Source of the DNA: a virus
Virus record (IMG/VR): IMGVR_UViG_3300030104_002907
Location: 1 to 36,260 of that record
DNA: 36,260 nucleotides
Direction: 5' to 3' (one strand)
The notes beneath the pieces were generated by a model. The model ran no database searches, was not told the origin of the DNA, and was given only the letters and a program-made list of their open reading frames with translations. Below are positions 11,178 through 30,575 of this stretch, piece by piece (position 1 is the stretch's first letter; every line of letters starts with the position of its first letter). The position numbers and the translations under genes were made by a program.

Positions 11178-11492
11178 TCACCTTTTAAAAAATATCATCA
11201 TCCCTTTTCCTGAAGGATAAAACTGTCCTTCTATTCTACTTATTCCACTATACTCATTAGCGAGTAATCCTAAATGATTGGGCATATTTTTAATTAACTG
11301 TTTTAACTCTTTAACTTGTTCCATATCTAAATCAACTTTATAACCTCTAGCGTTAGGATTTTCAGAAATCGCTTGTTGTAAAGGGTTATCTAAATTTTCT
11401 TCAGCCCATTCAAATAAAGCCTCTGGAGAACTTGCCGCTTCTGTAAATGCTTGCACATCAAAAGGTGCTTTCAAAACTTCTTGCCAACTCAT
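11178..11492 (-). CDS. Tagged small protein (MSWQEVLK N-terminus), unknown function
   Basis: 104 residues. The ATG at 11492 is chosen over a GTG 12 bases earlier because AGGTGG sits at the right distance and the protein then begins exactly with the shared tag MSWQEVLK. After the tag comes a helical acidic domain (SPEALFEWAEENLDNPLQQAI, MEQVKELKQLIKNMP) and a short beta end (QFYPSGKGMMIFFKR). The upstream stop TAA overlaps the ribosome site region. No family is recognised. By its tag it belongs to the proposed virion cargo group. Confidence 0.75.
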   Translation of the reverse strand: MSWQEVLKAPFDVQAFTEAASSPEALFEWAEENLDNPLQQAISENPNARGYKVDLDMEQVKELKQLIKNMPNHLGLLANEYSGISRIEGQFYPSGKGMMIFFKR

Positions 11493-11493
11493 T

Positions 11494-11730
11494 TTAATTA
11501 CCACCTAATCTGTCTACTAAATCGTTTATATCATCCCAACTCATCTTAGCAATTGTATCTGAATCTGGAACATCAGACCTTTTACCCATTGCTGGAACTG
11601 GAGTATTACTTGTAACCATTCCTGATTTCATTAAAAGATTATCATTATTATAAACTGTCTTTTCTATTTCTTTTATTCTGCCTACTAATTCTTTTAGTAA
11701 GTCCATCATTTCATTATTTTCTTCTGTCAT
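11494..11730 (-). CDS. Small scaffold-like protein with the same C-terminal helix as the protease/scaffold
   Basis: 78 residues: an N-terminal coiled-coil helix (MTEENNEMMDLLKELVGRIKEIEKTV), a short linker, then SDTIAKMSWDDINDLVDRL and GGN at the end. The C-terminal segment is nearly the same as the end of the prohead protease/scaffold (SDEIAKMDWSDINALVERL). The ATG overlaps the upstream TGA (ATGA) and has GGGAGGATGA before it. It may be a second scaffold or an adaptor competing for the same site on capsid or portal protein. The homology of the tail is seen; the role is inferred. Confidence 0.75.
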   Translation of the reverse strand: MTEENNEMMDLLKELVGRIKEIEKTVYNNDNLLMKSGMVTSNTPVPAMGKRSDVPDSDTIAKMSWDDINDLVDRLGGN

Positions 11731-12068
11731 TTTTCATCCTCCCTTAAACTACCAGCACTCTTTGGATATACTATTTTTCTTACTTGGCGATACAGTTGTT
11801 CGTACTGCTTACGAAGTTTGCTCGCAGTAGCGACCATATCAACGTTTTGCTCATTAATAGATTTCATTCGCTTTTTCATTTTAGAATCATCTTTAACCAA
11901 ATCAAGTTCTTCTAGCATCCCAATCAAATCTCCTAACTGTGTAAAGTCTTGACCGAAATACTCTGTAGGTTCTGCCGCTTGAAGTGTTTTCTTTAACTTC
12001 TTTTTCATTTTAGAATCTAAAGCATTAAGAATTTTATTTTCTTCTTTTAGTATATCTTCCCATGTCAT
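11727..12068 (-). CDS. Tagged small helical protein (MTWEDILK N-terminus)
   Basis: 113 residues, beginning with the canonical tag MTWEDILK. The rest is almost all helix and strongly charged (NALDSKMKKKLKKTLQAAE, GDLIGMLEELDLVKDDSKMK, ASKLRKQYEQLYRQVRKI) with a basic C-terminal half, so nucleic-acid contact is possible. The stop overlaps the next ATG (ATGA), and its own ATG overlaps the stop of the gene before it. No family is recognised. Confidence 0.75.
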   Translation of the reverse strand: MTWEDILKEENKILNALDSKMKKKLKKTLQAAEPTEYFGQDFTQLGDLIGMLEELDLVKDDSKMKKRMKSINEQNVDMVATASKLRKQYEQLYRQVRKIVYPKSAGSLREDEK

Positions 12069-12355
12069 GCCATTTCCTCTCCATCTTCAGTAATTATCAT
12101 CTCATCTCCATCTTCATCATCATAAGTAATAGACCACATGTAACCCCCGTATTCAATCTCTTTGGGGCCGTAAAGACCTTCTTCTGCTTCATCCATTAAT
12201 TTTTCAGCCATTTTTATAGCCCCTTCTTTGGTGTCCATAATTTCTTCTTCGATATTCATCGGCGGATAAGGTCTACCACTTTTAGTATAGAACGTTAGTA
12301 ATATGTTAAATTGCTGTATTTTAACATCCCGTTTCAATATATCTTCCCAAGCCAT
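12065..12355 (-). CDS. Tagged small acidic protein (MAWEDILK N-terminus)
   Basis: 96 residues from the ATG at 12355. A longer reading from 12406 is possible, but the ATG at 12355 has GGTGATATT at ideal distance, that site covers the stop of the preceding gene, and the protein then begins with the tag MAWEDILK. After the tag comes an alpha/beta domain (IQQFNILLTFYTKSGRPYPP, GAIKMAEKLMDEAEEG, GGYMWSITYDDEDGDEMI) with a very acidic C-terminus. It resembles small phage proteins of unknown function. Confidence 0.75.
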   Translation of the reverse strand: MAWEDILKRDVKIQQFNILLTFYTKSGRPYPPMNIEEEIMDTKEGAIKMAEKLMDEAEEGLYGPKEIEYGGYMWSITYDDEDGDEMIITEDGEEMA

Positions 12356-12359
12356 AATA

Positions 12360-12698
12360 TCACCCATAATATTTTCTTTTTCCTTCGGTTTTTCTTTTTG
12401 GGTCATACTCCAAAAGTTTTGGATTAAAGGGGTCTTTAGAACCTGTTCTTGTTCTACTGTAAATTAGCCCCCTTTCTTGTAAATATTTTTGGAGTTTAGG
12501 GAGAGCAAATCTCGCAAATTCTTTAGTATCAAAATTAAACTTCCACCTATCTTCTTCTCCCTTACTTTTTGCATAGTCTTCTTCTAAATCAATAATGAAA
12601 TTTCCTCCACCATATGAATCATCTACCATTTCCCTTAATCGTTTATATCTTCTTTCTAAAGTAACTTCACTTTTCAACAATATATTTTCCCAAGCCAT
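12360..12698 (-). CDS. Tagged small basic protein (MAWENILLK N-terminus)
   Basis: 112 residues. Tag MAWENILLK, then an alpha/beta body (RYKRLREMVDDSYGGGNFIIDL, EFARFALPKLQKYLQERGLIY) ending in a Lys/Arg/Tyr tail (RKTEGKRKYYG). The segment LPKLQKYLQERGLIYSRTR has a winged-helix feel. The 5' end shares 21 identical bases with the next gene in the operon (GGTGATATTATGGCTTGGGA plus one), covering ribosome site, start and tag. Function unknown. Confidence 0.75.
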   Translation of the reverse strand: MAWENILLKSEVTLERRYKRLREMVDDSYGGGNFIIDLEEDYAKSKGEEDRWKFNFDTKEFARFALPKLQKYLQERGLIYSRTRTGSKDPFNPKLLEYDPKRKTEGKRKYYG

Positions 12699-12706
12699 AA
12701 TATCAC

Positions 12707-13102
12707 CTAATCCTCATAATACGAAGCGGGGGGGCTTCTATCTAATGCTCTTAATTCTGGATTGGGATTGTATGAAGAAGAAGAAGGCTTTAACCTTTGA
12801 TTCCCAAAACGAAAATCTTTAAGTCTGTCAGGCTCAAAACGCAATACCTTTTCCCTTACTTCTTCTTCGGTATCACTTACACTATACCATGACCTCCACC
12901 ATTCTAAATTTTTAAGCCAATTTTCATCATTAGTATATTTATGCCAAGCGTCTTGATAAACATCGCCATCGAATTCCTCGGCATTGTCTTCGCCTTCATT
13001 CCTTATACTCTGGAGAAGGTCCCCCCACCAATAAGGCGCTAATTCCTCTAAATCAAATTCTGAATAAGTTTTTCTATTTTTTAATATATCTTTCCAACTC
13101 AT
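12707..13102 (-). CDS. Tagged small acidic protein (MSWKDILK N-terminus)
   Basis: 131 residues from the ATG that overlaps the upstream TGA (ATGA), with GAGGGG before it. It begins with the tag MSWKDILK. The body is rich in Trp, Asp and Glu (LEELAPYWWGDLLQSIRNEG, NLEWWRSWYSVSDTEEEV) and ends in a Ser/Pro/Arg-rich tail (SSSSYNPNPELRALDRSPPAS). No family is recognised. Confidence 0.72.
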   Translation of the reverse strand: MSWKDILKNRKTYSEFDLEELAPYWWGDLLQSIRNEGEDNAEEFDGDVYQDAWHKYTNDENWLKNLEWWRSWYSVSDTEEEVREKVLRFEPDRLKDFRFGNQRLKPSSSSYNPNPELRALDRSPPASYYED

Positions 13103-14697: not shown

Positions 14698-14705
14698 ATT
14701 ATCCC

Positions 14706-14927
14706 TCAAAAGAATGGTATATTTTCTTTCTTTTGCCTTTTCCTTTTAGGTAAATGAATTACATTAGGTACACTATTAGTTTTAGGTTCAGGTCTATCCT
14801 TTTCCTTTTTTAATTGCATAGGCATATAATTAGGCTTAGGCGCTTTAAGTTTTTCTTGTTGTGCTAAAATTCTTTCAGCCCTAACTAATTCTTTTCTCAT
14901 TTTTATTGTATCTTCTCTTGTTGTCAT
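14706..14927 (-). CDS. Small very basic protein
   Basis: 73 residues. One N-terminal helix (DTIKMRKELVRAERILAQQEKLK) followed by a basic, proline-rich unstructured tail (KKEKDRPEPKTN, PKRKRQKKENIPFF). The ATG has GGGAGAAGATAAA upstream and follows the gene before it by one base. Size and charge fit a DNA-binding internal virion protein, but it lacks the tag and no family is recognised. Confidence 0.7.
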   Translation of the reverse strand: MTTREDTIKMRKELVRAERILAQQEKLKAPKPNYMPMQLKKEKDRPEPKTNSVPNVIHLPKRKRQKKENIPFF

Positions 14928-14928
14928 T

Positions 14929-15156
14929 TTATCTTCTCCCTTCTTCTATGTATATAATAGGGCCATATCTATCAGCCCCTCTAGTATCTCTTTTCATCAT
15001 AACTGTATATTTTCCATCTTTTTTTCTAATAACATGAGGAACAGCAAAAGACCATCTGTAGGCTTGTCTTCTTGCTTTTTCAAAATCATCGAATGTTCTC
15101 CTAGAGCCTTCTTCATCAAAGTAACTCCATCTTTTTAAAATTGAAACCCAAGTCAT
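14929..15156 (-). CDS. Tagged small basic protein (MTWVSILK N-terminus)
   Basis: 75 residues with the tag MTWVSILKRW. The rest forms one small alpha/beta domain: FDDFEKARRQAYRWSFAVPHVIRKKDGKYTVMMKR, in which a helix is followed by two strands of the type seen in small DNA- or peptide-binding domains. The ATG overlaps the portal stop and is preceded by GAGGTGGGATATA. Function unknown. Confidence 0.75.
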   Translation of the reverse strand: MTWVSILKRWSYFDEEGSRRTFDDFEKARRQAYRWSFAVPHVIRKKDGKYTVMMKRDTRGADRYGPIIYIEEGRR

Positions 15157-16802
15157 TATATCCCACCTCTTTCAGTTCTTCTATCTACGTTATTATTAGC
15201 GGCTTCTTTTGGTAAACCCTTACTACGATTAGGTGGCCCTACACTCATCTTAGGTTTAGACTTTACTTCAGCGGGCTTTCCCGCCTCTGCCATTGTAGGT
15301 CTAGTTCCCGCCTCCATCATTTGCCCTAGTTGTGACTGGTCAATATCTGTTCCAGCATAAGGGTCAGACTCTATTGTTTTTTCTTCCCCTTCTTGCCCTT
15401 GCATGTCAGGTTTAGGTTCAGGCTTTTTAAATGTGAATTTACCATTCTCATCCATATCAACTTCAAAACCTAAGTTTTTAATTTGCCCTGCAATATTAAC
15501 TTCAATTTCTCTTTTACGCATAACTGCAATTTCGTCCTCTTCCTCAGATGGAGGAAGAACTAATCTCCAATCAGTTATACCAAACTGCTTGGTTATAAAA
15601 GGAAATACATATTTATTGTAAACATTTTGAGCCATTTCTACTGCTCTATTTGTTACAAGTATTTGCATACCTTCATTGTTTAAACCACCACTAGCAGAAT
15701 TATCCGCCATGAAGATTTTACTTACACCATAGAAAGCGGCAACTCTATCTCTTAAATCTTCTTTAACTGAAATATAATCCATTTCTTTTAAACTGTCCAT
15801 GAACTTAACCCACTCTACAGAACCTCTACCGTTCTCTGCTTCTATTCCCATAACTGGAATAAAGTGTGCATCTTGTTCCATCTTTTCTTTAACTCCTCTC
15901 CAAAAAGTTTTCATTGATTCTATATTTCTAGTTTGAACAGCAAGCAATCCTTTAGGCATCCTTGCTTTTGTATATGCTTGATTGATATAATTCTCCATAG
16001 CGATTAAAGTTGTTAAGTGATTCCATAATGTTATTACTGGGCTAGTTCCATATAATCTACTTGGAGAATATTTACTGAAATGCAATACTTCTCCTTTGAT
16101 AAAATTCTGAGCATCTCCATGCGCCCTATTAGTATAATGAACTGGATACATATCTCCACCACATTCTCCACATTTTTCGTGAGGGTCAGAAGTAGTAACA
16201 TGTCTATGGTGAATACAAGTATAAGTATCTCCACCTTTATTCCCTTCATCATCACAAACAATAGCCATAGTTACTGGGTCTGCTCTATAAATTTCTTTTA
16301 TTTTATGCGCTCTAATATTACCATTACCATCAATAAAATACTCTTTAACTAATACAATATAAGCATCGTCCATAACATTCAAATCATCCTCTAATTCTTT
16401 TAGGACATCAATGAACATCTGCTCAGATTCATTAATATATTCTGCTTCCATTAATTTATTAGCGTACATTTTTTGTCGCTTGTCAGGCTTTCTAAGATTA
16501 GTTGAATCACACTCTACACATTGGTCTACAGTCTGCTCATGTTCTTTTCCGCAATCCATACATTTAACTGCAAATCTAGGAGTCCACTCGTATCCTCTTC
16601 TAAAGATTTCATTCTTTAATTGAGTTATACAAGTTCTAAGAATAACTGAATTGTCAGCAATATGATAAACTATAGGACCAGTCATCATTAAAGGATGATG
16701 TCTTTCTTGTATTCCCATTTGGTAAACTTCTCTATCTTGTGGAACTGGTGTACTCTTTCTAAAGAAATTAGTAATAGAAAATCTTCTTTTTTCTTCGGGC
16801 AT
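15156..16802 (-). CDS. Portal protein with zinc-ribbon insertions
   Basis: 548 residues. The portal core is visible in FSKYSPSRLYGTSPVITLWN and in the helices after it (MENYINQAYTKARMPKGLL, YISVKEDLRDRVAAFYGVSK), the usual portal stem and clip order. Two Cys-rich inserts lie in the wing region: CMDCGKEHEQTVDQCVEC at about 80-97 (CxxC...CxxC) and HEKCGECGGDM at about 215, so one or two zinc sites. The C-terminal 90 residues are disordered and rich in Glu, Pro and Lys. It follows the LAGLIDADG-like gene with a one-base overlap; ribosome site GGGTGG. It forms the dodecameric DNA gate at one capsid vertex. Confidence 0.88.
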   Translation of the reverse strand: MPEEKRRFSITNFFRKSTPVPQDREVYQMGIQERHHPLMMTGPIVYHIADNSVILRTCITQLKNEIFRRGYEWTPRFAVKCMDCGKEHEQTVDQCVECDSTNLRKPDKRQKMYANKLMEAEYINESEQMFIDVLKELEDDLNVMDDAYIVLVKEYFIDGNGNIRAHKIKEIYRADPVTMAIVCDDEGNKGGDTYTCIHHRHVTTSDPHEKCGECGGDMYPVHYTNRAHGDAQNFIKGEVLHFSKYSPSRLYGTSPVITLWNHLTTLIAMENYINQAYTKARMPKGLLAVQTRNIESMKTFWRGVKEKMEQDAHFIPVMGIEAENGRGSVEWVKFMDSLKEMDYISVKEDLRDRVAAFYGVSKIFMADNSASGGLNNEGMQILVTNRAVEMAQNVYNKYVFPFITKQFGITDWRLVLPPSEEEDEIAVMRKREIEVNIAGQIKNLGFEVDMDENGKFTFKKPEPKPDMQGQEGEEKTIESDPYAGTDIDQSQLGQMMEAGTRPTMAEAGKPAEVKSKPKMSVGPPNRSKGLPKEAANNNVDRRTERGGI

Positions 16803-18157
16803 TATACAACCACCCCTCTTTCCAACTCATCCATAATATTCATTTTATTATTCTCCTTATATTTAGAAATGTTTTCAATATCAATATTGTCTTTAGAAAA
16901 ATCATAATTGACGTGGTCCGCATGGTTAGCCCATTTCATCAACTTAAATAACTCTCCCATTCTTTCTTTGGCCCAAGACTGTTTTTTGTGATTTTTCTTA
17001 ATTCGAATTAATTCCATAAGAATATCTGCATTATCCCCCTTCATTCGATAATAAGGGCGAGTTTTTTCTATTAGTTTAGTAATATCATTTTGAGAATAAA
17101 AATTTAATCTTTGAACAGCCCTAGTTGCTTGAGGTGATTTTTGGTCTAAATGTAATTTACCAAATCCTAGTTCTTTATGTAATTCAGTTACGAATGCTTT
17201 ACCTCTGTTACCTGTAGCAATTATACCAATTCTAGGATTGTAATTTCTATCCATAGTTATGTAACCATCTGAATCTATAAAAGCCGCAGTATAAGCATAA
17301 AGGTCTTTTTTAATTTCCATAGGTAATTTATAGTATTCACCATCAATATTAGTTATATTCATTTTATCGGCGACTTTACAAATTATTTGTGGAGAAGCAC
17401 GTCTATGTAATTTGTTTGGCAACCGTTCATAAATTTGCCTAGCAGTTACACCTTGTTCATCACAAACAGCCTTTAGAACAAAATCATCTAATTGTTTTGT
17501 AATATTAGTTTTTATTATTTGATTAGGTATGCTAGTAACTAACTTCCTAAATTCCTTTTTAGAATTAGTCATAGTTTTAGTTAAAGAAGAATAATCAGAG
17601 TCATAATTTTTACCCCTATGTAATTCCGCCTCCCAGTATTTACATAAAGAATCTATTATTTCTCTTCTAGTAGATTCATCTTTTACAGAGTATATTTTCT
17701 TTAAATCTGATTCTGTATATCTCATTTGTCTTAATGGAGTTTCATAGGGTGCTAACCAATAGATAGATTTTATACAATCTGTTAAATGATTAGAATAAGC
17801 AACTATTAGATTTTCAATACCTTTTGTAAATTCTAGTTTATTATCTCCCTTTAGTTTTCTTCTATATTTTCTTAAATCTTTAACTATCTCAGGGATAGAT
17901 TTATTTTCAATAGTATATTTTTTAGGAAAGGAATCTAATTTCATTTTAGCATCTGTGATATTTATATTGTATTTTTTAGAAACACTCATCGCTACTTCAT
18001 AATCACTCATAATAGGTAAAGTAGAAACCCATTTTCCAACTGTTTCTAATTGGTCTTTTATTTCTTCTTCCCTGTCTTTTAAGTCAGCCAACTCTTCGTG
18101 TTGTCTTGCTTGCTCTCGAAGTTTATCTCCTTCTTCACCTTTAGAAATTAAGTCCAA
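16802..18157 (-). CDS. LAGLIDADG-like domain protein between terminase and portal
   Basis: 451 residues from a TTG start just behind GGAGGGGGA, overlapping the terminase end by 17 bases. Residues 1-60 are a charged coiled coil, 225-275 resemble a winged helix (VTARQIYERLPNKL, YYKLPM), and 285-400 hold a LAGLIDADG-type motif AAFIDSDGYI (291-300) with the following fold (NPRIGIIATGN, LGFGKLHLD, KGDNADILMEL). Only one motif copy is seen, so a homing enzyme would have to act as a dimer. The gene is not an intein and does not interrupt either neighbour. It could be a homing endonuclease or a packaging-related nuclease or regulator that took over the fold. Confidence 0.7.
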   Translation of the reverse strand: MDLISKGEEGDKLREQARQHEELADLKDREEEIKDQLETVGKWVSTLPIMSDYEVAMSVSKKYNINITDAKMKLDSFPKKYTIENKSIPEIVKDLRKYRRKLKGDNKLEFTKGIENLIVAYSNHLTDCIKSIYWLAPYETPLRQMRYTESDLKKIYSVKDESTRREIIDSLCKYWEAELHRGKNYDSDYSSLTKTMTNSKKEFRKLVTSIPNQIIKTNITKQLDDFVLKAVCDEQGVTARQIYERLPNKLHRRASPQIICKVADKMNITNIDGEYYKLPMEIKKDLYAYTAAFIDSDGYITMDRNYNPRIGIIATGNRGKAFVTELHKELGFGKLHLDQKSPQATRAVQRLNFYSQNDITKLIEKTRPYYRMKGDNADILMELIRIKKNHKKQSWAKERMGELFKLMKWANHADHVNYDFSKDNIDIENISKYKENNKMNIMDELERGVVV

Positions 18158-19589
18158 ACATTCCCCCTCCTATAACACTCGCCTGTGGTTGCTCATTATC
18201 AAATATTGCCATATCATCTAATAAGACAATTGACTCTAACATATCATGTGTGGCGGAGTTAGCAAGAGCGAGGCCCATAACTAAATCATCGTGAGCGCCC
18301 ACTCCTTCAAACTTTCCATTGTCAGTAATACTAAACATAGATAATTCTTCTACAATATTATCCGTCACTTTTCTTGATTCATCATTTCCTCTAGGGAATA
18401 TAATCTTAGTATTTTCAATATTCATTTGCAAGTTAAGAATAATTTCTTCTTTCTTTCTACGGGTCATTGTCACATCTCTAATATTTAAATCAGTTTCATT
18501 ACGCAACTCTTGAGTAAATGATTTAGCAAAAGTATTAGTTTCAAAATAAATTACATCAGGTTCAAATAATTGTGCAACCATTTTTATTTTATTTATGTTA
18601 TCTCTAAACTCTACATTCTTTTGTCTATCAACATAAATTATTCTTTTATTTCTTTGTTCATCTACTTCTAAAACCATAATAACATTATAGTCACCATCAG
18701 TAGAAATGGCGGGGTCAACCCCAACATAGTAATTATAACCCGAATCTTTTCTATGTCTTAATCTTAGAATATCTTTTTTACCCGCTTGTTTACATGCATC
18801 AATATGCTCTTGTGCGAAAAGAGCAGTACCAGTGGATATAGGAATACAAAGATACTCTCTTGTAAATTTTAAAGAACCTACTTCTTTTTTTCTTTGCATA
18901 AGAGAATCGTAATCCCAACGAGAAGACCATAGTGGTTCATTGTTTTGATTAAGACATGGGTAATTCCTAACAGTATATACTTGCTCATACTCTTCACTCG
19001 CTAACAAAGCAAAAATATCTGTATAAGTAAAGGGCGTTCCAATCATTCTAAGACTAGCGGTGTGATGAAGTGTAGGAATCATATCCCCGAAGAACCAATC
19101 TGTAACTTTTTTAATAGCAGTTAAACTAAATTCCTTTAGAGGGTCATCAATGATTATTTCTTGTGGATGAAGACCTCTAATCTGAGAACCTACTGAACGC
19201 TCTAAAATAGAGTTGCCATTAGTAAGAGTAATATTTCCTATAGCCCACCCCCTTGAGGGTCTAAAGTGTGAGATAGTTGGATTGTTAAATAGTTTATCTA
19301 TATCCCTCATATGAACCATAGTCTGTTTATGGTTAGAAGAAATGTATAACATTTGATAAGGAGCAGGTTGAAAACACAATTGCCAAACAGCCCATGAATG
19401 CATGAAGACAGATTTACCATGGTCACGACTACAAATAATAACTGTTCTATCTGTATCGTTCATAAGGTCTAACCACTCTTGATGAAAAGTAGTAAATTCG
19501 AAACCTAAAACTTCTGTAAAGAAATATGGAAAAGATGTCCTTGACATTTCTAAATCCATTTGCTTTTTGAAGTCTAAATTATCTAACAT
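18141..19589 (-). CDS. terL: Terminase large subunit (TerL)
   Basis: 482 residues. The ATPase part has Walker A CSRDHGKS (53-60), Walker B EIIIDDP and the coupling motif MIGTPF. The nuclease part has VGVDPAISTDGDYN, the glutamate in VIYFETNTFAKSF and AHDDLVMGLALA, the three acidic sites of the RNase H-like fold. It cuts concatemers and pumps DNA through the portal. The ATG overlaps the GNAT-like gene's stop by a few bases. The order TerS-like, TerL, portal, protease, capsid is kept, though with many insertions. Confidence 0.95.
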   Translation of the reverse strand: MLDNLDFKKQMDLEMSRTSFPYFFTEVLGFEFTTFHQEWLDLMNDTDRTVIICSRDHGKSVFMHSWAVWQLCFQPAPYQMLYISSNHKQTMVHMRDIDKLFNNPTISHFRPSRGWAIGNITLTNGNSILERSVGSQIRGLHPQEIIIDDPLKEFSLTAIKKVTDWFFGDMIPTLHHTASLRMIGTPFTYTDIFALLASEEYEQVYTVRNYPCLNQNNEPLWSSRWDYDSLMQRKKEVGSLKFTREYLCIPISTGTALFAQEHIDACKQAGKKDILRLRHRKDSGYNYYVGVDPAISTDGDYNVIMVLEVDEQRNKRIIYVDRQKNVEFRDNINKIKMVAQLFEPDVIYFETNTFAKSFTQELRNETDLNIRDVTMTRRKKEEIILNLQMNIENTKIIFPRGNDESRKVTDNIVEELSMFSITDNGKFEGVGAHDDLVMGLALANSATHDMLESIVLLDDMAIFDNEQPQASVIGGGMFGLNF

Positions 19590-20107
19590 ATTCCTAACCT
19601 ATCATACATTTCATCTTTCAATAACATTTCTTTCCATGTGAACGCTCTCTTTTTAATACCCCAATTGCCATCAGGGTAATTTTTTTTCCAAGTTTCTATA
19701 ACTTTTTGAGGAACACCTTCAAATTCATCGGGGTTTAAAGACCATCCTGTATTTCTAAAAAAATCTAAGTATTGTTCTTGACTTCCTCTTTTTGCATTTA
19801 ATCCCGCTATCTTTGGTTTGCCCCCAATCCATTTTTCTCTTTCTTTTTGGAATAATTTAAGAGTGCCTGTAACTCCCTCTCTACCTTTAGCGCCCCCAAC
19901 TAGAAAATAACTACCTCTATCAGTAAACCCTTGAATACCAACAACTTCACCATTAAGAACTCTAACAATCCATTCTTCTAAAGGATAAAAACTATCAAGG
20001 TTAGAACGTCTAATATATTTATCATTAGGATTATCTTCATTAAATAAATCAACAGCACTATCTTTAGTCATTGGTTCGCTAACGCCATCAGGTAAATTTG
20101 TTGGCAT
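19583..20107 (-). CDS. GNAT acetyltransferase-like protein with a C-terminal tag-like motif
   Basis: 174 residues. A GNAT-like pattern is visible: EWIVRVLNGEVVGIQGF (strands), YFLVGGAKGREGVTGTLKLF (acetyl-CoA loop like region followed by a helix) and PKIAGLNAKRGSQEQYLDFFRNTGW (late strand and helix). No catalytic residue can be assigned with certainty. The C-terminus carries FTWKEMLLKD (Trp158), which matches the W-x-x-x-L-K tag but sits at the end of the protein. ATG after TTTAGGTGATACG. Located just upstream of TerL. Confidence 0.6.
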   Translation of the reverse strand: MPTNLPDGVSEPMTKDSAVDLFNEDNPNDKYIRRSNLDSFYPLEEWIVRVLNGEVVGIQGFTDRGSYFLVGGAKGREGVTGTLKLFQKEREKWIGGKPKIAGLNAKRGSQEQYLDFFRNTGWSLNPDEFEGVPQKVIETWKKNYPDGNWGIKKRAFTWKEMLLKDEMYDRLGIC

Positions 20108-22623: not shown

Positions 22624-24576
22624 TTAATTACCTCCCATTAAATTTTTAAATTTTATTGCTTGTCTTCTTTCTAAATATTTAGTAGGGTTTTCTGCTACTT
22701 CAGTTGCCTTTGTTTCGGCATCAGTGACAATAGCGTTTCTTATTTCTTTTATATGTGTATCTAAAAGAGAATAATATTCTTTTATCTTTTTATCAAGTTC
22801 TTTATTATTCAACGTAATAATTCTACTTAATTGTTTTAATTGATTATAATTAGACCTATCGTATAACTCTCCTACAAATTGTAAGAAGTTTAAAAAGTTA
22901 TTAACGCTCCAAGAATTCATAGAACCCAAACTAACACCTTCAGAACCAACGGCAGTTTTACCTAGTAAATCCTCTAATGTTTCTTCTCCCTTTAACCCAC
23001 TATAAACTATTTTAGCAAAGGGGATTTCTTCTTTACTGAATTGATTTAAGTCTACATCTTTAGCACTTTTAATTTCTGCTAATAATTCCGTAACTGCATC
23101 TTTCGCTTTACTAGCCATTCTTTTCTTTTGTCTTCTAAATGCATTACCATATAATGTATCATCATTAACCTTTTTATCATAAAAATTTCTAAAAGAATTG
23201 TAAACTTTAGGATTGAGCATATACTTAAAATTAATTTCTTTTTTATCTATAGTTTCAGTTTTGGGTTTTATTTGAACATTTCTTAAATCATTTACTAATT
23301 TTTTAAATTTACTAACTTCTTCCTCTGAATTGATAGAGCGCTCTAGCGCACTCTCTTCCTTTTTTAGAAAATCTATATAATCTAATTCACCTGTAGATAA
23401 TGAGTATTTTAAAGAGTTTCTTAAAGCATTCAATTTTCTAGTATAATTTTCTACCGCTTCATCGCTAAAGTCTTCTTGTCTATTACGCAAATAATTTCTT
23501 ACATTCTCATTTGTTATATCTAATTTAACTTCTAAATTGATTGACATTCCGTAAAATAAACTATCTTTTATTTCTGTTAAATCATCCTCTAACAATTCCT
23601 TTAGATATATGTTTAATTTTTTTTGCTGAATTAAACCTACTCTTTTCATCTCTTTCATTTGTTTAGAAAAGTTTATCTTTTTCTTTTTTCCACCAAATCC
23701 AATTAAAAATTGTTTCGTCTTCTTCTCGTTCCAAGTCCCAATACTAATATCCTTGTAGTCTTCTAATAACTCACTTTGCGTTTGGTCCCTTTCCTTAATG
23801 TTAGAAAGGTCAAACAATTGTATTAGAGGATGAGGGTAAGTTATTTCAGTTAATCCAAGTTCTCTCTTTAGAGATTTTATTTCTTGCATTTCTCCTTTAG
23901 TAAAATTTCTAACCCATTGAACTTTACCTGCTTTACTAAATGCCTTCTCATAACCTTTTAATTCATCGCCATCGTAATTATACACTATAGATATAAATTG
24001 ATTAGAATACGGATTTGATTTTGTAGGATACTCATCTAAGTAAGGCTTCATTTCAATTTTATATTTAGTATATTTATTCTCTACTCTTTTTGGTAAAGAC
24101 TCAGCAACTTCTCTTAAAATTTCACCTTTGTTATTAGCATCATCAAAAATGAACTCTCCATCTCTTTCAAAATAATCTTTATAATTTTGAGGTTTAGGTT
24201 TATATTGTTTACCTTTCTTACCAGCAGTACGTCTAGTTTCTCCTAACTTTTCATTAAGATATTTTTTTGCTTCTGTAACTACTTCATCTACCGCATTAAT
24301 CATATCCCCTTCAGGAATATCATCATCTAATACATATTCTCCAAGTTCAAAATACTCATCTTCTTTTATACTGTTAAAAAAATTTCTAGCATCTTGAATA
24401 CCTTTACCATAGTTGCCACTCTTTAAATCTTTGATGAATTCATTCTTTCCTTTAGTCCATTTTCTATTTTCAAAACTAGAATCTAAAAGATTAAATATTT
24501 CAAAATGATTAGGTTCTTTTGAACTAGGTAATTGAACAGTCCAAGGTTTAAATTTTAAAATTTGCATCCAACTCAT
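22624..24576 (-). CDS. Tagged large protein (MSWMQILK N-terminus), unknown function
   Basis: 650 residues from the ATG that overlaps the upstream TGA (ATGA), with GAGGAGAAATT before it. Starting there puts the tag MSWMQILK at the very N-terminus. The rest is Lys/Glu/Asn-rich and helical (KKTKQFLIGFGGKKKKINFSK, QMKEMKRVGLIQQKKLNIYL), with no cysteine pairs or membrane segments. It is the largest tagged protein, which shows that the tag is not limited to microproteins. Confidence 0.77.
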   Translation of the reverse strand: MSWMQILKFKPWTVQLPSSKEPNHFEIFNLLDSSFENRKWTKGKNEFIKDLKSGNYGKGIQDARNFFNSIKEDEYFELGEYVLDDDIPEGDMINAVDEVVTEAKKYLNEKLGETRRTAGKKGKQYKPKPQNYKDYFERDGEFIFDDANNKGEILREVAESLPKRVENKYTKYKIEMKPYLDEYPTKSNPYSNQFISIVYNYDGDELKGYEKAFSKAGKVQWVRNFTKGEMQEIKSLKRELGLTEITYPHPLIQLFDLSNIKERDQTQSELLEDYKDISIGTWNEKKTKQFLIGFGGKKKKINFSKQMKEMKRVGLIQQKKLNIYLKELLEDDLTEIKDSLFYGMSINLEVKLDITNENVRNYLRNRQEDFSDEAVENYTRKLNALRNSLKYSLSTGELDYIDFLKKEESALERSINSEEEVSKFKKLVNDLRNVQIKPKTETIDKKEINFKYMLNPKVYNSFRNFYDKKVNDDTLYGNAFRRQKKRMASKAKDAVTELLAEIKSAKDVDLNQFSKEEIPFAKIVYSGLKGEETLEDLLGKTAVGSEGVSLGSMNSWSVNNFLNFLQFVGELYDRSNYNQLKQLSRIITLNNKELDKKIKEYYSLLDTHIKEIRNAIVTDAETKATEVAENPTKYLERRQAIKFKNLMGGN

Positions 24577-25240: not shown

Positions 25241-25771
25241 TCACCTAACCATATCTTTGATAGAATCTAGTCTTTTTAGCGCTTCTCTTAATTTTTTTCT
25301 ATTAGGTATATATTGAGTTCTATACATCTCATCATACCATTTAAATCCTAACGTATTAGGCTCAAGTGTATCAAGTTGTCTGAGTTGTCCGTTAATAACG
25401 CTAACTTGCTCATCAACAAAACCTTTCATGGTTTTTCCTACTTCTTTCAATCTTTTCTCATGATTACCACTAACTACTTTCTTAGCGAGTTTTTCGATTC
25501 GTCTTACAATACTCAGTGGGTCTGCCTCGGCCGCATTATTGGCATAGAGGTACAGACCCCATTCTTCATCTTTAGAAGTATTTTTTTCACTAGGTATTTG
25601 CTCTTGTTGCCTAATCCATTCTTCGGGGTCGTCAACTATATCTTGAGTATCATCACCACTTTCTTCTTCTGGAGGACTTTCGGTTCTTAATGACCTTTCT
25701 TCATTGTATGGAGAATACCCAGTTTCATCTAATCGTCCATATGTTCTTTTCAATATATCTTCCCATGTCAT
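25241..25771 (-). CDS. Tagged protein (MTWEDILK N-terminus), unknown function
   Basis: 176 residues: tag MTWEDILKRTYG, then an acidic unstructured linker rich in Glu, Ser and Pro (about 20-75), then a helical domain (LSIVRRIEKLAKKVVSGNHEKR, VINGQLRQLDTLEPNTLG). The ATG is preceded by GGAGATGATTAA. The tag plus flexible linker plus folded domain layout is what a cleavable targeting tag would need. No family is recognised. Confidence 0.77.
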   Translation of the reverse strand: MTWEDILKRTYGRLDETGYSPYNEERSLRTESPPEEESGDDTQDIVDDPEEWIRQQEQIPSEKNTSKDEEWGLYLYANNAAEADPLSIVRRIEKLAKKVVSGNHEKRLKEVGKTMKGFVDEQVSVINGQLRQLDTLEPNTLGFKWYDEMYRTQYIPNRKKLREALKRLDSIKDMVR

Positions 25772-25775: not shown

Positions 25776-27341
25776 TCATCTCCATAAAGAGTATCCCCAA
25801 CTTTTCTTAACTTTAGTTTGTTTTTTTGCTTTTATTCTTCTAATGGCATCATCATATTTTGAGCGCCATTCTCCTGAAAATGAATTCCTAGATTTATTAC
25901 TACCTCTAAGTTCGAATGGCCTTTTACCATCAGGAGCCATAATTACACTATTTTTACCTCTAACGATTTTATTGATTGCATAATTTAGGAACACTCCAGT
26001 AAAAGAAAAATCAACAAATTCAATTTCGACTAAATTTTCTTCTTCTAAAATAAATTCAGCAATTTGATAAGTTTTTAAAAACTCTTGACTTATTGTTACA
26101 TTTCTAAAAGGTCTTCCCATTTCTTCTAACAAACTACCATATTTAATAATATGACTCATATTACCTCTCTTAAAATTATTAGCATTCTTCATAGCGTTTA
26201 CTAACCTCTTTTCAAATTCTGTTGCTAAAGAACCAGTTGAATCTAATGAAAGTGATATAGCCTTTTCTTCCATCTTACCTGTACTTAATCCTTTGAAATT
26301 AATATTAGTAATTATAGGCGGAGGTGGTTTTTTACCTATCTCAACGATTATTTCAACAATATGCAAAAGACCTTTAGTAACTGCATCTCCATCCTTTTTA
26401 GATTCAGAGGAACCAGCAAACATAGATTGCCACAAAGGAGGTTCTGCTGTATTAGGAGAACCACTATACCAATCTTTATTATCTAATGGTTTTTCTTTTT
26501 TACCATGCACTTTATTTCTAACCTCTACATAACCATCTGTCCTATAATGTCCATAAACGGTTTCTTTTGCTTCAGGTACAAATTTATCTCCTACTTTTTT
26601 AGCACCAGTTGATACATTAAAAACAATATTACGAGGATTACGTTTTGTATTTTTATTTAATATCTTTAATTGCTTCTGTAAGGTTTTGAATTTATCCATA
26701 TCATCCCTAGTAATTAATTCTAATTCTTTACCAAATATAGTATCCATTCTTTTCCAAATACCCTTTACACCCCGTCTTCTTGGTTGGTTTGGTCTTTGAT
26801 AATTAGAATCTATATGTGCCAATGTAGCCTCATAAAGATTAGTAGTGAATTGTTTAGGTTTACCATCTGTGTATCCTGAGCCACCAGTTACACCTATATC
26901 CATCTTAGAGGCTCCAGTAGTCTCACTCTTCCAAGTTTCATATGCACTTTTAGCCTGTTCAAATTTTTCACCTAGATTTTGGTCTATTATAAAACCTATA
27001 CCGTCTGGAGTTCTACCACTAACTCCGCCAACTTTTTTAACTCTCTTTGATATAATTTCTTCTTTTTTCTTTTTACGATAACGAGGTTTACTTTCAAGGC
27101 CCGCAGTTGTACTCATAACTGCACCCGCCATTTTTTCTTCCTCATCAGAGATTTTTAACATTTTAGCCCAAGAACCAAATCCCGCTTTACCCGCTAACTT
27201 ATCTAAAATAGACAAACGGTATTTCTTAGCAAGTTTAAGTTCTGCCTGTTGTTGTTCTATATTACCAAACTTCATAGTCTCTTCAACCTCTCTACGGTAT
27301 TGTGGATATTGCCGAATAAATTCTGATTCTACTATTGCCAT
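25776..27341 (-). CDS. Large basic protein of unknown function with an internal tag-like motif
   Basis: 521 residues from an ATG behind GTAGGTGAAATGA. An N-terminal helical region (QYRREVEETMKFGNIEQQQAE) leads into FGSWAKMLK with Trp58, which matches the shared tag but about 55 residues in. Lys-rich spacer regions (KPRYRKKKKEE) follow, then a mixed alpha/beta domain in the second half (KEKPLDNKDWYSG, PPIITNINFKGL, LVEIEFVDFSFTGVFLNYAI). No motif gives a function. Confidence 0.75.
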   Translation of the reverse strand: MAIVESEFIRQYPQYRREVEETMKFGNIEQQQAELKLAKKYRLSILDKLAGKAGFGSWAKMLKISDEEEKMAGAVMSTTAGLESKPRYRKKKKEEIISKRVKKVGGVSGRTPDGIGFIIDQNLGEKFEQAKSAYETWKSETTGASKMDIGVTGGSGYTDGKPKQFTTNLYEATLAHIDSNYQRPNQPRRRGVKGIWKRMDTIFGKELELITRDDMDKFKTLQKQLKILNKNTKRNPRNIVFNVSTGAKKVGDKFVPEAKETVYGHYRTDGYVEVRNKVHGKKEKPLDNKDWYSGSPNTAEPPLWQSMFAGSSESKKDGDAVTKGLLHIVEIIVEIGKKPPPPIITNINFKGLSTGKMEEKAISLSLDSTGSLATEFEKRLVNAMKNANNFKRGNMSHIIKYGSLLEEMGRPFRNVTISQEFLKTYQIAEFILEEENLVEIEFVDFSFTGVFLNYAINKIVRGKNSVIMAPDGKRPFELRGSNKSRNSFSGEWRSKYDDAIRRIKAKKQTKVKKSWGYSLWR

Positions 27342-27350
27342 TCATTTCAC

Positions 27351-27515
27351 CTACATAGTTGGAACTTTCATTGGGCAATAAGGAGGCGCTGAAGTCTCTC
27401 CTTTTGCGGGTAATTTAAGAGGACAAATATCTCCAGTCCCTATAAATTTCTTACATTTAGAACAGGTTCCAGAATATTGAGTTCTTCTAGTTTTTAAAAT
27501 TTCTATCCACGCCAT
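27351..27515 (-). CDS. Tagged zinc-ribbon microprotein (MAWIEILK N-terminus)
   Basis: 54 residues from the ATG with GGGTGATAGA upstream; a longer reading from 27551 is not supported by a ribosome site. The whole protein is the tag MAWIEILKTRR plus one small ribbon: CSKC (residues about 18-21), then CPLKLP and CPMKVP, four cysteines in CxxC...C...C arrangement. That is enough for one zinc. The tag has been placed directly before a minimal zinc module. Confidence 0.75.
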   Translation of the reverse strand: MAWIEILKTRRTQYSGTCSKCKKFIGTGDICPLKLPAKGETSAPPYCPMKVPTM

Positions 27516-27557
27516 TCTATCACCCAACACTTGCTCGTAATTATATCTCATTTAATA

Positions 27558-28064
27558 TCATTTCTTTTTTAAAGGTTCCTTCCACCCTGTAAAGGTTAAT
27601 CTTTGCCCACTCGGAAAATCTGTAGAGTACTCTGCATCAGGGTCAAACTCCATATCTTCAAATCCACCCTCAAATTTACCTTTAGGAGTTATAAATTTAG
27701 CACCTTTTTCACCCTCTTCTGATACAGCAATAGCGTCTTGACCATATTTATCAGCCATCTCATAAATCTTACTCTCTAAACTAGTAGGAACTCCTGTCAG
27801 CATAAAAGAAGGCTCAGTTCCCCATATATCGGGAGTCTTACCCGTAGCAGAAGTAATAGTAAATTTATTCCCTACATTTAATCTTGCTAACTCATCTAAC
27901 ATTTTATCAGCCAACTTACTCATTTCTTTAGGAGTTAAATTTTTATTAGCAGGTTTAGCCGCAATAAAAAAATTGTGACGTTTTGGTTTAATTAAACGCT
28001 GTACTTGTTTAGGGTCAAACCCATGTAAGGTAGTTTGTCTCTTAAGTATGCGTTTCCATTTCAA
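27558..28064 (-). CDS. Tagged protein (MKWKRILK N-terminus), unknown function
   Basis: 168 residues from a TTG start (TTG AAA TGG) with GTGGTGATTAT before it; the only nearby ATG is out of frame. After the tag MKWKRILKRQ comes an alpha/beta domain: HNFFIAAKPANKNLTPKEM, KLADKMLDELARLN, SKIYEMADKYGQDAIAVSEEG. The phrase YGQDAIAV is seen in small phage and bacterial proteins of unknown function, possibly of the DUF3293 group, which I cannot confirm. Confidence 0.75.
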   Translation of the reverse strand: MKWKRILKRQTTLHGFDPKQVQRLIKPKRHNFFIAAKPANKNLTPKEMSKLADKMLDELARLNVGNKFTITSATGKTPDIWGTEPSFMLTGVPTSLESKIYEMADKYGQDAIAVSEEGEKGAKFITPKGKFEGGFEDMEFDPDAEYSTDFPSGQRLTFTGWKEPLKKK

Positions 28065-28068
28065 ATAA

Positions 28069-28416
28069 TCACCACAACTTCTTACATGCTAAACATTTAG
28101 GAGTTGTAATTTTACCCTTACATTGGTCGCAATTATGTCTTGCTCTAAAATTGGCTCTACGTTTACTACTTCTATGAGTTCCGCCACCCCTATTTTTTCC
28201 TTTGCGTTTGTAATTACCATAACCTTTTGCACCAGCATGAATCTTTTTACCTTCATGAGTTAACATCATTATTTTTTTACCTGCTCTATCACTAGGATAG
28301 ACTCTACCTACTCGCATGTCTTCTTTTTTCTTTGGCTTTCGCTTCTTTTTACGTTGTTTAGATGCTTTCTTTCTTCGAGACTTACTCTTTTTACGGAGAA
28401 CCTCAAACCATTCCAT
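28069..28416 (-). CDS. Tagged, extremely basic protein with a DUF5754-like domain and C-terminal zinc ribbon
   Basis: 115 residues. Tag MEWFEVLRKK, then a Lys/Arg-rich run (about 10-33). Next comes the phrase VYPSDRAGKKIMMLTHEGKK with HAGAKGYGNYKRKG and RRANFRARHNC, which I recall from a short family found in phages and large eukaryotic viruses (DUF5754-type). It ends with CDQCKG and CLACKKLW, a CxxC...CxxC ribbon. Charge and size fit a DNA-condensing internal protein. The tag is not part of the known domain, so it looks added. Confidence 0.75.
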   Translation of the reverse strand: MEWFEVLRKKSKSRRKKASKQRKKKRKPKKKEDMRVGRVYPSDRAGKKIMMLTHEGKKIHAGAKGYGNYKRKGKNRGGGTHRSSKRRANFRARHNCDQCKGKITTPKCLACKKLW

Positions 28417-28420
28417 AATA

Positions 28421-28753
28421 TCACAGCCCGTCCATTAAAATAATGTCACCGTCTTTATGAGTCTTTATGTTTTTCATTGAATCAAGAACTGCTTTACATT
28501 CCTTTTTAGATAAACCAGTTTCTTTACATAAAACATCTAGTCCAGCGGCTCCACCTTCTTTCTTTAGAGTTCTAATGATGATTGGTTTTGGGTCAGCCTT
28601 TTTTTCTCTCAATTGCCTAAAGTCTTCTCCAGTTATTTTACCATCACCATCAGCATCTATTCTTTTTTGATTGCCAACTAATGCCTTTTCTTCTTCAACA
28701 TCTACTTTACGTTCTGTTCCGCAATGCATTTTTAATACATCTTCCCATGTCAT
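28421..28753 (-). CDS. Tagged protein with an EF-hand-like calcium loop and a winged-helix-like domain
   Basis: 110 residues: tag MTWEDVLK, then DADGDGKITGED (33-44), which fits the 12-residue calcium loop D-x-D-x-D-G-x-I-x-x-x-D as in single EF-hands and dockerins. A winged-helix-like domain follows (60-110: IRTLKKEGGAAGLDVL, SKKECKAVLDSMK, KDGDIILM). The last domain is clearly related to that of the next gene. The ATG has GAGAGGTGATAAAAA before it. Calcium binding is predicted from the loop only. Confidence 0.77.
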   Translation of the reverse strand: MTWEDVLKMHCGTERKVDVEEEKALVGNQKRIDADGDGKITGEDFRQLREKKADPKPIIIRTLKKEGGAAGLDVLCKETGLSKKECKAVLDSMKNIKTHKDGDIILMDGL

Positions 28754-29256
28754 TTTTTATCACCTCTCTTTTTTTCCATCTTAGGGTGGAATTTCATTGT
28801 TACTTTTTTTGCATCTTTTTTGATAGACACACCATCAACTAATACTTCTACAGGATAAGGTTCATGTTTACCTGCCCAATATGCCATATCATAACTATTG
28901 TCTTTTAATAACTTAACAAGTAATCCTCTGTCATACTCTTTATCTTCCGCCTTAAGCACTGTTTGTTTACCTTTAGTTAATAGTAAATCAATGCCTTTTT
29001 TAGATGATTTTGGTTTATGAGTATAAAAATCTCCATTAGAATGTTCATAAATGATTCCCCTCTTTTTCATATCTTCAAGAACCATCTTTAACTTTTTAGG
29101 AGAACCTATTCCTTTTAAGTTTTTCATACCTAAAGCCCCTCCTTCTTTTTTAACTTCTGCTAAAATCTTTTTCTCCATATCTTTACATTCATCATGAGTA
29201 ATGGTAGTTTCTCCATCTTTTAGTTCTCGTTTTATTAGTATATCTTCCCAATTCAT
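28750..29256 (-). CDS. Tagged winged-helix-like protein (MNWEDILIK N-terminus)
   Basis: 168 residues. Tag MNWEDILIK, then a domain at about 25-80 (EVKKEGGALGMKNLKGIG, KKLKMVLEDMKKRGIIYEHS, GDFYTH) that shares KKEGGAxG, K-x-V-L-x-x-M-K and G-D with the neighbouring EF-hand gene, so the two are paralogous there. The second half is a separate alpha/beta region ending in a very basic tail (KMEKKRGDKK). The stop overlaps the next ATG. It probably binds nucleic acid; unproven. Confidence 0.75.
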   Translation of the reverse strand: MNWEDILIKRELKDGETTITHDECKDMEKKILAEVKKEGGALGMKNLKGIGSPKKLKMVLEDMKKRGIIYEHSNGDFYTHKPKSSKKGIDLLLTKGKQTVLKAEDKEYDRGLLVKLLKDNSYDMAYWAGKHEPYPVEVLVDGVSIKKDAKKVTMKFHPKMEKKRGDKK

Positions 29257-30089
29257 GATTTCATCCTCTGTGTTTTTCTCTTGCTAGACTCCTTTCGGGA
29301 TAGAGCAACCTTATGGGCCGCATTTAATCTCTTTTTCGCTTCAGGGTCTTTTGCCCTTTTAGCCGCAACTCTCGCTCTTTGCTCTACTAAGTTAATGATT
29401 TGTGATTGTCTTTTATGTGGTTTATTCTTAAACGCAGAACTAGAAAATGTTTCTCTAACATCCTGTGCGGTTTTAAATTTTACAGGTACAGTATCTTTTG
29501 GATTTTCATCAGTGTATAATCTTCTAGTAGAACCTTGGGGTTTTTTACCAGTACCTTTTCTTGGTTCCTTTTTTATAATTTTTTCCCATTTTTGAACAAT
29601 AGGTTCTAACTCTTTAATTGGTTTTACTTCATCTTTAATTTTATCCACGTCATCCTTACATGACTCAAATTTATCTATTATATCTGATAACTCGTTTAGA
29701 CAATCTATCACAAAAGCATGGTCAAGTTTGGGGGATACTTCTGTTAATTCTTCTGGAGACATATTTTTCATTCTTTCCCACTCTGCTTTTCCATCTATCA
29801 TAAAATCATATAACTCTGAACAATCCTGTTGGTCTATAATATCTAAAACACCATCTATATCCATAAATTCCCTATCCATAAATTCTATTAATTCTTGTCT
29901 AGCAGTTTCGCAACAGGCTTTAGATGCTTCATCTTCATCAATCCCAATTTTCTTTAGAATAGTTTGCCAACCTTTCTTTACATAACCACTAGCATAAGCC
30001 GCTTGAGCAACTTGTTGTGCCTTTTTCTTAGTTTTAAACGGACCTTTAGAACCCCAGTAATAACCATCTTTTCTTTCAGTTATAGGCAT
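29253..30089 (-). CDS. Protein with a GYYWGSKGPF-type N-terminal motif and an internal tag-like motif
   Basis: 278 residues from the ATG (MPITERKDGYYWGSKGPF); a GTG nine bases earlier is less likely. The first 35 residues (G-Y-Y-W-G-S-K-G-P-F, KKAQQVAQAAYASGY) are a short motif I have seen at the start of many phage proteins. It is followed directly by GWQTILKK (Trp41), the shared tag in an internal place. The middle is acidic and helical with several Cys, and the C-terminus is basic (RARVAAKRAKDPEAKKRL, SSKRKTQRMK). Unknown function, probable virion cargo. Confidence 0.72.
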   Translation of the reverse strand: MPITERKDGYYWGSKGPFKTKKKAQQVAQAAYASGYVKKGWQTILKKIGIDEDEASKACCETARQELIEFMDREFMDIDGVLDIIDQQDCSELYDFMIDGKAEWERMKNMSPEELTEVSPKLDHAFVIDCLNELSDIIDKFESCKDDVDKIKDEVKPIKELEPIVQKWEKIIKKEPRKGTGKKPQGSTRRLYTDENPKDTVPVKFKTAQDVRETFSSSAFKNKPHKRQSQIINLVEQRARVAAKRAKDPEAKKRLNAAHKVALSRKESSKRKTQRMKS

Positions 30090-30094
30090 CTTAA

Positions 30095-30367
30095 TCACTT
30101 TTGACTAAACTTTTTTCCAGTCTTCACATGTTGCTTTCCTTTTTTACTACCTTTCTTTTTCTTTTTATCTTGATAATCTAATCGAGATTTAGGAGTTTTT
30201 TGATATGTTGCTTTTGGCATATATCTTCCTTCAGTTTTAGGTTTAGGAGTTTTCCCTTTTTCTTTCGCACTATGTTGTTCTTGGCTACCCCACTCTTCCT
30301 CTTCCCATTGGTCTAAGTCTTGTTGTATTTTTTTCTTAGCCTTCAAGACTTCTTGCCATTTAATCAC
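30095..30367 (-). CDS. Tagged basic protein from a GTG start (MIKWQEVLK N-terminus)
   Basis: 90 residues. No ATG lies at the right place. A GTG at 30367 follows AGGTGGCTATC at good distance and overlaps the stop of the preceding gene, and it yields M-I-K-W-Q-E-V-L-K, the shared tag shifted by one residue. The rest is low complexity, Lys/Gln/Pro-rich (EKGKTPKPKTEGRYMPKATY, YQDKKKKKGSKKGKQH), very basic, and probably disordered and DNA-binding. A longer frame up to 30445 exists but lacks a ribosome site. Confidence 0.68.
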   Translation of the reverse strand: MIKWQEVLKAKKKIQQDLDQWEEEEWGSQEQHSAKEKGKTPKPKTEGRYMPKATYQKTPKSRLDYQDKKKKKGSKKGKQHVKTGKKFSQK

Positions 30368-30575
30368 GATAGCCACCACCTGCTTTCTTATAGGCTTGGG
30401 CCAACATTTGTGCTTTTCTTGCAGACCATTGACCTGCCGCACCACCTTTTGAGCCTCTTTTTATTCTAAGGAATATTCTTCTTCTTAACGCTGGTTTAGT
30501 ATAATTACCTGCTTGATTGACAGTTGATTTACGCTTCTTCTTTCCTTTCTTATGAATAATATCTTCCCAAGTCAC
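30360..30575 (-). CDS. Tagged small basic protein with a DUF5872-like domain
   Basis: 71 residues from a GTG start (GTG ACT TGG GAA GAT) after AAGGAGATGATA. Tag MTWEDIIHKK, a Lys-rich linker, then YTKPALRRRIFLRIKRG, KGGAAGQWSARKAQML and KKAGGGYRD. The pattern Y-T-K-P-x-L-R...K-G-G-x-x-G-Q-W-S-A-R-K-x-Q...G-G-G-Y is one I recall as DUF5872, known from phages and large viruses without this tag. This gene is good evidence that the tag is grafted onto pre-existing domains. Confidence 0.77.
   Translation of the reverse strand: MTWEDIIHKKGKKKRKSTVNQAGNYTKPALRRRIFLRIKRGSKGGAAGQWSARKAQMLAQAYKKAGGGYRD

Follow-up and report, generated by a model that had tools for sequence, protein, structure and literature searches.

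A short peptide shared by unrelated late proteins is a candidate capsid-targeting tag of Magrovirales-like archaeal viruses

Encapsulin cargo-loading peptides are short terminal peptides, typically C-terminal and uncleaved, that load unrelated enzymes into a shell of the HK97 fold. In phage T4, the capsid-targeting sequence (CTS) comprises ~10 N-terminal residues common to the otherwise different internal proteins IPI-III and Alt, with residues 4 and 7 needed for targeting and residues 8 and 10 for processing, and both ends of Alt undergo processing (PMC9026906). The P1 protein DarB carries an N-terminal packaging signal, a stretch of 30 residues that suffices for a foreign protein to enter the capsid (PMC9024508), and in HK97 a cut of the capsid protein at K103/S104, behind a Lys of a flexible segment, removes the scaffold region (PMC10275583). 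Here we analyze a 36,260-nucleotide stretch of viral DNA (the window; positions 1 to 36,260 of IMG/VR record IMGVR_UViG_3300030104_002907) in which, as an earlier note made from the letters alone had pointed out, fifteen unrelated late proteins begin with one and the same short peptide. We find that this peptide, M-[S/T/x]-W-x-[D/N/x]-[I/V]-[L/I]-K, is very probably a shared docking peptide, and that it is fairly likely to be a capsid-targeting (cargo-loading) tag of Magrovirales-like archaeal viruses, with or without cleavage.

By analogy, the tag is best read as working like the T4 CTS while being unrelated to it in residues, position rules and scale. As in T4, a short peptide is common to unrelated late proteins, here with conservation confined to 8 residues; as in T4, where targeting and processing residues are distinct, the tag combines a Trp/Ile part with a terminal cleavage-like residue, and one enzyme here is tagged at both ends. 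In contrast to the T4 CTS, the peptide reads W-x-x-I-L-K, with a cut after the K suggested by the residue patterns, and eight residues are too few to show homology; copies also occur at C-termini and in linkers, the tag marks hundreds of protein clusters in one lineage, and the viruses are archaeal and encode an S78 protease. Because copies are not restricted to the N-terminus, and because virion location and cleavage are predictions, we do not claim that the tag is a T4-type CTS. The encapsulin signals differ in that the tags here are mainly N-terminal and belong to a virus, and DarB differs in being one known protein, with no motif common to many unrelated proteins. The likeness to HK97 lies in an N-terminal N-x-L-L-K that is conserved in the capsid protein, whose gene adjoins that of the S78 protease; however, the HK97 scaffold is a domain of the capsid protein whereas here it is the protease that has a scaffold-like region fused to it, and PMC10275583 describes no set of tagged cargo proteins. 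What is new relative to known targeting signals is the scale, the position-independence and the archaeal virus context.

All fifteen tagged starts listed in the earlier note are present in the window, each coordinate marking the first base of a start codon, and all lie on the minus strand, which the note had not given (Table 1). Three of the starts are non-ATG codons (TTG at 28064, GTG at 30367 and 30575) and five use a start codon that is internal to a longer open reading frame (ORF; 12355, 13102, 24576, 27515 and 30367). The reported size range of 54 to 650 residues is correct and Pfam recovers the reported EF-hand, in 28421-28753; the zinc ribbon that was also mentioned is not found by Pfam in 27351-27551. 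The pattern W-x-x-[IVM]-[IL]-[KRLIH] occurs within the first 40 residues in 15 of the 41 late genes, whereas 2000 within-protein shuffles give 0.13 on average and never more than 2, and a degenerate DNA pattern of the tag, with at most one mismatch, finds 20 matches in the window versus 2.8 in shuffles (maximum 7). Besides the fifteen N-terminal copies, the window holds one C-terminal, two internal and one degenerate copy that the earlier note had missed, as it had the conserved Φ-Φ-K sites of the capsid protein and protease.

A motif search over the late proteins of related viral contigs, which that note had proposed as a check, reveals that the tag recurs lineage-wide. Across the window and 20 related contigs there are 272 occurrences of the core motif W-x-x-[IV]-[LI]-K, versus 19 in shuffled proteins; at positions 1-5 of late-strand proteins there are 156 motifs (0.71 expected), and at the same positions on the opposite (replication) strand there are none. 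The contigs carry 3-22 counted tagged proteins each, with tags mostly 5' of the protease and capsid genes: 34% of the late genes upstream of the protease-scaffold gene are tagged (215/632), as opposed to 2% in the tail half (P = 1e-27), and the fraction between the protease-scaffold gene and gene 1834 is 4%. In the related contigs and the window, no tag occurs on the capsid protein, portal, TerL, TerS, protease or ligase, nor on other core genes. When 2.9 million viral contigs are scanned with the tag DNA only, 21 of the 25 records tested carry this S78 protease; of the other four, two have other genes of the group, one is seemingly unrelated and one short record is undecided. Three tag-bearing contigs without this capsid protein were examined, and two are fragments of the same group that lack the capsid region while the third (G043), with a single tag, looks unrelated. 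The tag set described for the window is thus real, but it belongs to a lineage-wide system of ~394 protein clusters and is not a local oddity.

These ~394 clusters were obtained with the tag masked and are unlinked at E 1e-6, and the tag is confined to the head/packaging side of the late module, which upholds the view that one portable targeting or docking tag is shared by unrelated late proteins. Its conservation, M-[S 57%]-W-[E/K/Q/F]-[D 48%]-[I 83%/V]-[L 78%/I]-K, stops abruptly after the K (+5), with residues from +6 onward mostly non-specific. The tagged proteins differ in fold (polymerase, PAP2, GNAT and EF-hand by Pfam), their homologs gain, lose, change or move the tag, and tagged N-terminal modules are shuffled; homologs of the Cys-rich protein, for example, carry differing N-terminal tags ahead of the same Cys-rich domain. 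Some fusions and shared N-terminal modules (tag plus a D-x-D-G-D linker in L012, L013 and L149) could be taken to mean that the tagged proteins are diverged paralogs that retain an ancestral N-terminus. The unlinked clusters, the differing folds and the mobility of the tag among homologs speak against common ancestry, which we regard as refuted by fold diversity and N-to-C switching and as the least probable explanation considered here.

The tag is separate from the protein folds, as judged from domain limits and a structure prediction. In a 416-residue nucleotidyltransferase-like enzyme, the Pfam domains span residues 30-390 and tags occupy both ends, and in an AlphaFold2 model of the 113-residue core late protein the predicted local distance difference test (pLDDT) score is ~52 for residues 1-10 versus 87-94 in most of the core. 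This model is helical and Foldseek returns no convincing PDB match for it. Searches of 100 tagged proteins with PADLOC and PHROGs give scattered matches only, and a literature search for the tag strings finds no matching paper. We also note that a tRNA-nucleotidyltransferase-like enzyme (L151:13868-15118 and L155:3747-4991) has an N-terminal tag in both viruses; one copy is also C-terminally tagged and the other ends in a degenerate SWEDLLWR.

The earlier note had described an N-terminal tag, and most copies are indeed N-terminal, but genuine C-terminal and internal copies show that the tag is not strictly so. Nine copies lie within 12 residues of a C-terminus versus 0.99 expected (P = 1e-6), and none lies 13-25 residues from the end. 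The protein encoded at 31411-31734 is tagged at its C-terminus while its homologs in L059, L109 and L200 are tagged at the N-terminus (BLAST E 5e-13 to 9e-10), homologs of the protein encoded at 19583-20107 end in true C-terminal tags (WMKILRD-stop and WHLILKRY-stop), and a Gly-rich linker (G024) and the joints of fused proteins (L258, L051) hold further copies. Given these C-terminal, linker and fusion copies and the N-to-C switch, the tag is therefore not a translation or start-site signal, and its distribution fits a portable docking peptide. At the codon level, the Ser preceding the Trp (-1) is encoded by AGT in 246 of 258 MSW starts (95%) versus 247 of 403 untagged MS starts (61%), which suggests that some tags have spread through DNA copying. 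The same bias would be in keeping with a DNA- or mRNA-level element at gene starts, such as a translation enhancer or the end of a recombination cassette, that merely resembles a peptide; however, the Leu, Ile and Lys codons vary as broadly as background and non-initial copies use AGT and TCN alike. Such an element is highly improbable, and we reject it on this codon diversity and on the copies at C-termini and within proteins.

The element [AST]G.V[TS][ST] recurs downstream of internal tags in a few families and is absent after N-terminal tags. The sequence after internal W..xLK copies often reads [AT]G.VT[ST][ST] (e.g. WVKMLKLAGAVTSTTAG), as seen in 25776-27341 of the window and in L087:18123-18395, L140:7327-8340 and L137:1927-2355, and this element resembles the stretch that follows the conserved LLK in the capsid protein and in a 78-residue late protein.

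N-terminal tags bear marks that would be expected of cleavage after the lysine. After M-x-W-x-x-Φ-Φ, 381 of 400 clusters have K as the next residue and 7 have R, against a background K:R ratio of 1.9, and K:R is 364:6 in N-terminal tags versus 17:6 in C-terminal tags (P = 1.5e-5), some C-terminal copies being mutually homologous. Pro never directly follows the tag K (0 versus 12.6 expected; P = 2.7e-6) and is enriched two residues after it (22). Among the conserved lysines of core families, 6 of 25 in the capsid protein, protease-scaffold and 78-residue protein lie in Φ-Φ-K sites versus 2 of 86 in other families (P = 0.0016), with two of the six lying inside a domain or helix, and the tag class M-S-W-F-[DSN]-I-L-K holds the exact strings F[DS]ILK that flank the protease domain. 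From these patterns, we consider it an evenly balanced question whether N-terminal tags are cut after the lysine by the S78 prohead protease. The earlier note had set the tag apart from the protease-removed signal of T4; with these lysine-cleavage marks, it may be nearer to the CTS than was supposed. The K specificity, the Pro exclusion and the similar Φ-Φ-K sites in the capsid protein and protease would also be explained if the motif were a recognition site of the prohead protease only, with no docking role, on proteins that enter the head otherwise and are trimmed there. We find this improbable: the Trp that is near-invariant in tags is missing from the capsid-protein and protease sites, and C-terminal copies tolerate R and end 1-6 residues past the K, where a cut would be nearly pointless.

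In the mechanism that we propose, late proteins are made with an N-terminal tag or, less often, an extreme C-terminal or linker tag, as is seen directly in their sequences. The N-capped helix W-x-x-[IV]-[LI]-K would then dock on a common partner within the forming prohead, for which the protease-scaffold and the inner face of the capsid protein are candidates, the site perhaps being the one taken by the W-x-D-I tail of the scaffold, although this link is weak. The S78 protease would next cut N-terminal tags after the K and free the cargo in the maturing head, with C-terminal copies serving only to dock. Other probable targets of the protease are the capsid protein, after N-x-L-L-K, and the protease itself, at F-x-I-L-K; we infer these cuts from the K specificity, the absence of Pro after K and the matching conserved sites. 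By analogy with T4 and P1, the tagged proteins would be virion cargo that is injected with the DNA, and would include enzymes, DNA-binding and Lys/Arg-rich proteins, and GNAT-like and metallopeptidase-like proteins. That tagged proteins are packaged into the head is, in our view, likely. As a separate observation, the 78-residue protein and the protease-scaffold have a common C-terminal tail, [IV]A.M[SD]W.[DE]I[HN].[LM], in every homolog seen; this tail is a second shared terminal element, probably for a common partner.

Several observations weigh against the docking, packaging and cleavage scheme. The F-x-I-L-K strings that flank the protease may be strands of the S78 fold, as the Pfam match spans residues 27-181, and the AlphaFold2 model of the protease-scaffold, with a mean pLDDT of 54, is too poor to tell a strand from a cleavable linker. 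The Pro exclusion after K could also reflect helix geometry; the residues following the tag K are unlike those in the capsid protein (A/S/G), so that one common cleavage consensus is not demonstrated; and C-terminal tags would gain nothing if cleaved. The match between the tag and the scaffold tail is weak, in that 1.6-8% of W-containing sequence windows score equally, depending on the columns used, and S/D-W-x-D/E is a common helix-capping pattern. On this scoring test, mimicry of the scaffold tail was rejected as proof of the docking partner, and we keep the likeness as a weak hint. The docking partner could also lie outside the head: the tag might bind a late partner outside the prohead interior (the outer surface of the terminase or portal, a tail or assembly factory, or a host protein) and gather late proteins without packaging them. 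Tagged genes do lie around the TerS, TerL and portal genes, and the sequence evidence for docking is neutral as to the partner. A partner of this kind would leave the strict lysine of N-terminal tags, the lack of Pro and the matching Φ-Φ-K sites in the capsid protein and protease unexplained, and we think it unlikely. Taken to its full extent, the capsid-targeting reading describes an open cargo-loading system, in which the product of any late gene would become virion cargo once it gained the 8-residue tag, be it at one of its ends or within a linker, with N-terminal tags clipped after the lysine by the prohead protease. Hundreds of proteins, including tRNA-nucleotidyltransferase-like, PAP2-like, GNAT-like, metallopeptidase-like and basic DNA-binding candidates, would in this way be delivered into Poseidoniales archaea; we put forward this complete scenario tentatively, as a plausible one that may well fail in part.

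Judged by its architecture and its halovirus-like capsid protein, the window represents a fragment of late genes from a Magrovirales-like virus. The late module encodes a capsid protein of the SU10 type and an S78 prohead protease that is extended by a long helical region, as well as the portal and TerL. It also holds a gene resembling that of HMG-CoA lyase and one for an ATP-dependent DNA ligase, and HMGL and ligase domains are present in the window. There are ~395 relatives among viral contigs, of up to ~97 kb, and in related contigs of 87-97 kb the late and other modules lie on opposite strands. The marks of Magrovirales (~90-100 kb genomes, two opposed modules, HMG-CoA lyase and DNA ligase) are thereby found in the group, as is a further mark, the relation of the capsid protein to those of haloviruses (Druskaviridae): the closest named capsid proteins are from HVTV-1, HCTV-1 and HCTV-5, at 27-28% identity over 86% of the query. 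Magrovirales are viruses of Poseidoniales, and their published descriptions match the window and its relatives (PMC10768690, PMC12999244, PMC10160649). The genes of HVTV-1 and vir519 that were read contain neither the tag nor the scaffold tail. HVTV-1 (L161) itself has a repeated Y[VI]..S(P).EAPE.V.V..G element in genes 113, 115 and 116 of its head region, possibly a shared module of its own. Two contigs with the capsid gene of this group (L102, L103) are binned in a metagenome-assembled genome labelled Maricaulis sp. (IN14), which is probably a binning error for an archaeal virus.

Two neighboring genes of the late module deserve mention. An 825-residue protein (8319-10796), never tagged, has a central ATP-dependent DNA ligase domain, and its gene sits between those of the 78-residue protein and the protease in contigs with mapped gene order, an odd location for a replication enzyme. 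A 451-residue ORF between TerL and the portal (16802-18157) has no Pfam match, and its C-terminal half, AYTAAFIDSDGYI, by eye resembles a LAGLIDADG-type homing endonuclease.

Table 1. Tag copies and related features of the window, with coordinates and strand.
Feature	Coordinates	Strand	Remarks
N-terminal tag MSWQEVLK	11469..11492	-	
N-terminal tag MTWEDILK	12045..12068	-	on the 113-residue core late protein (11727-12068)
N-terminal tag MAWEDILK	12332..12355	-	
N-terminal tag MAWENILL	12675..12698	-	
N-terminal tag MSWKDILK	13079..13102	-	
N-terminal tag MTWVSILK	15133..15156	-	
N-terminal tag MSWMQILK	24553..24576	-	on a 650-residue protein
N-terminal tag MTWEDILK	25748..25771	-	
N-terminal tag MAWIEILK	27492..27515	-	on the Cys-rich protein
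N-terminal tag MKWKRILK	28041..28064	-	TTG start
N-terminal tag MEWFEVLR	28393..28416	-	on a Lys/Arg-rich protein
N-terminal tag MTWEDVLK	28730..28753	-	on the EF-hand-containing protein
N-terminal tag MNWEDILI	29233..29256	-	
N-terminal tag MIKWQEVLK	30341..30367	-	GTG start
N-terminal tag MTWEDIIH	30552..30575	-	GTG start
C-terminal tag WSNVLK (KSWSNVLKKK-stop)	31420..31437	-	end of 31411-31734
Internal tag KKGWQTILKK	29952..29969	-	between two domains of 29253-30098; kept in G003 and G022
Internal tag SWAKMLK	27153..27170	-	within 25776-27341; followed by AGAVMSTTAG
Degenerate tag WKEMLLK (TWKEMLLK)	19616..19636	-	near the C-terminus of 19583-20107
Prohead protease (Pfam Peptidase_S78) with a fused helical, scaffold-like region	6954..8288	-	
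FSILK of the protease-scaffold	8223..8237	-	residues 18-22, on the N-terminal side of the protease domain; F-x-I-L-K-S near-invariant; candidate cleavage site
FDILK of the protease-scaffold	7767..7781	-	near-invariant residues 170-174, where the protease domain has its C-terminal edge; either a candidate site of cleavage or the final strand of the fold
Conserved C-terminal tail of the protease-scaffold, KMDWSDINALVERLEGQI	6957..7010	-	a predicted helix begins with the W
78-residue protein	11494..11730	-	coiled-coil-like N-terminus; conserved LLMK-SG site; C-terminal tail KMSWDDINDLV
Major capsid protein (SU10_MCP, phrog_24667)	5581..6948	-	SU10_MCP/HK97-type
LLK of the capsid protein	6856..6864	-	residues 29-31, in conserved N-x-[LI]-L-K-[AS]-[AG]-G near the N-terminus; candidate cleavage site

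If this reading is correct, the tag is a marker, legible in sequence alone, of virion-delivered proteins in an abundant uncultured virus lineage, and several hundred small proteins that are now unknown would become a defined list of candidate injected effectors. A further gain would be a testable cleavage rule for an S78 prohead protease of archaeal viruses, along with a short and portable peptide with which shells of the HK97 type could be loaded. The idea of capsid targeting would then extend beyond a few T4 proteins and take in an address system that is lineage-wide and independent of position, and a cargo system would be operating in the heads of one of the abundant virus groups of the ocean.

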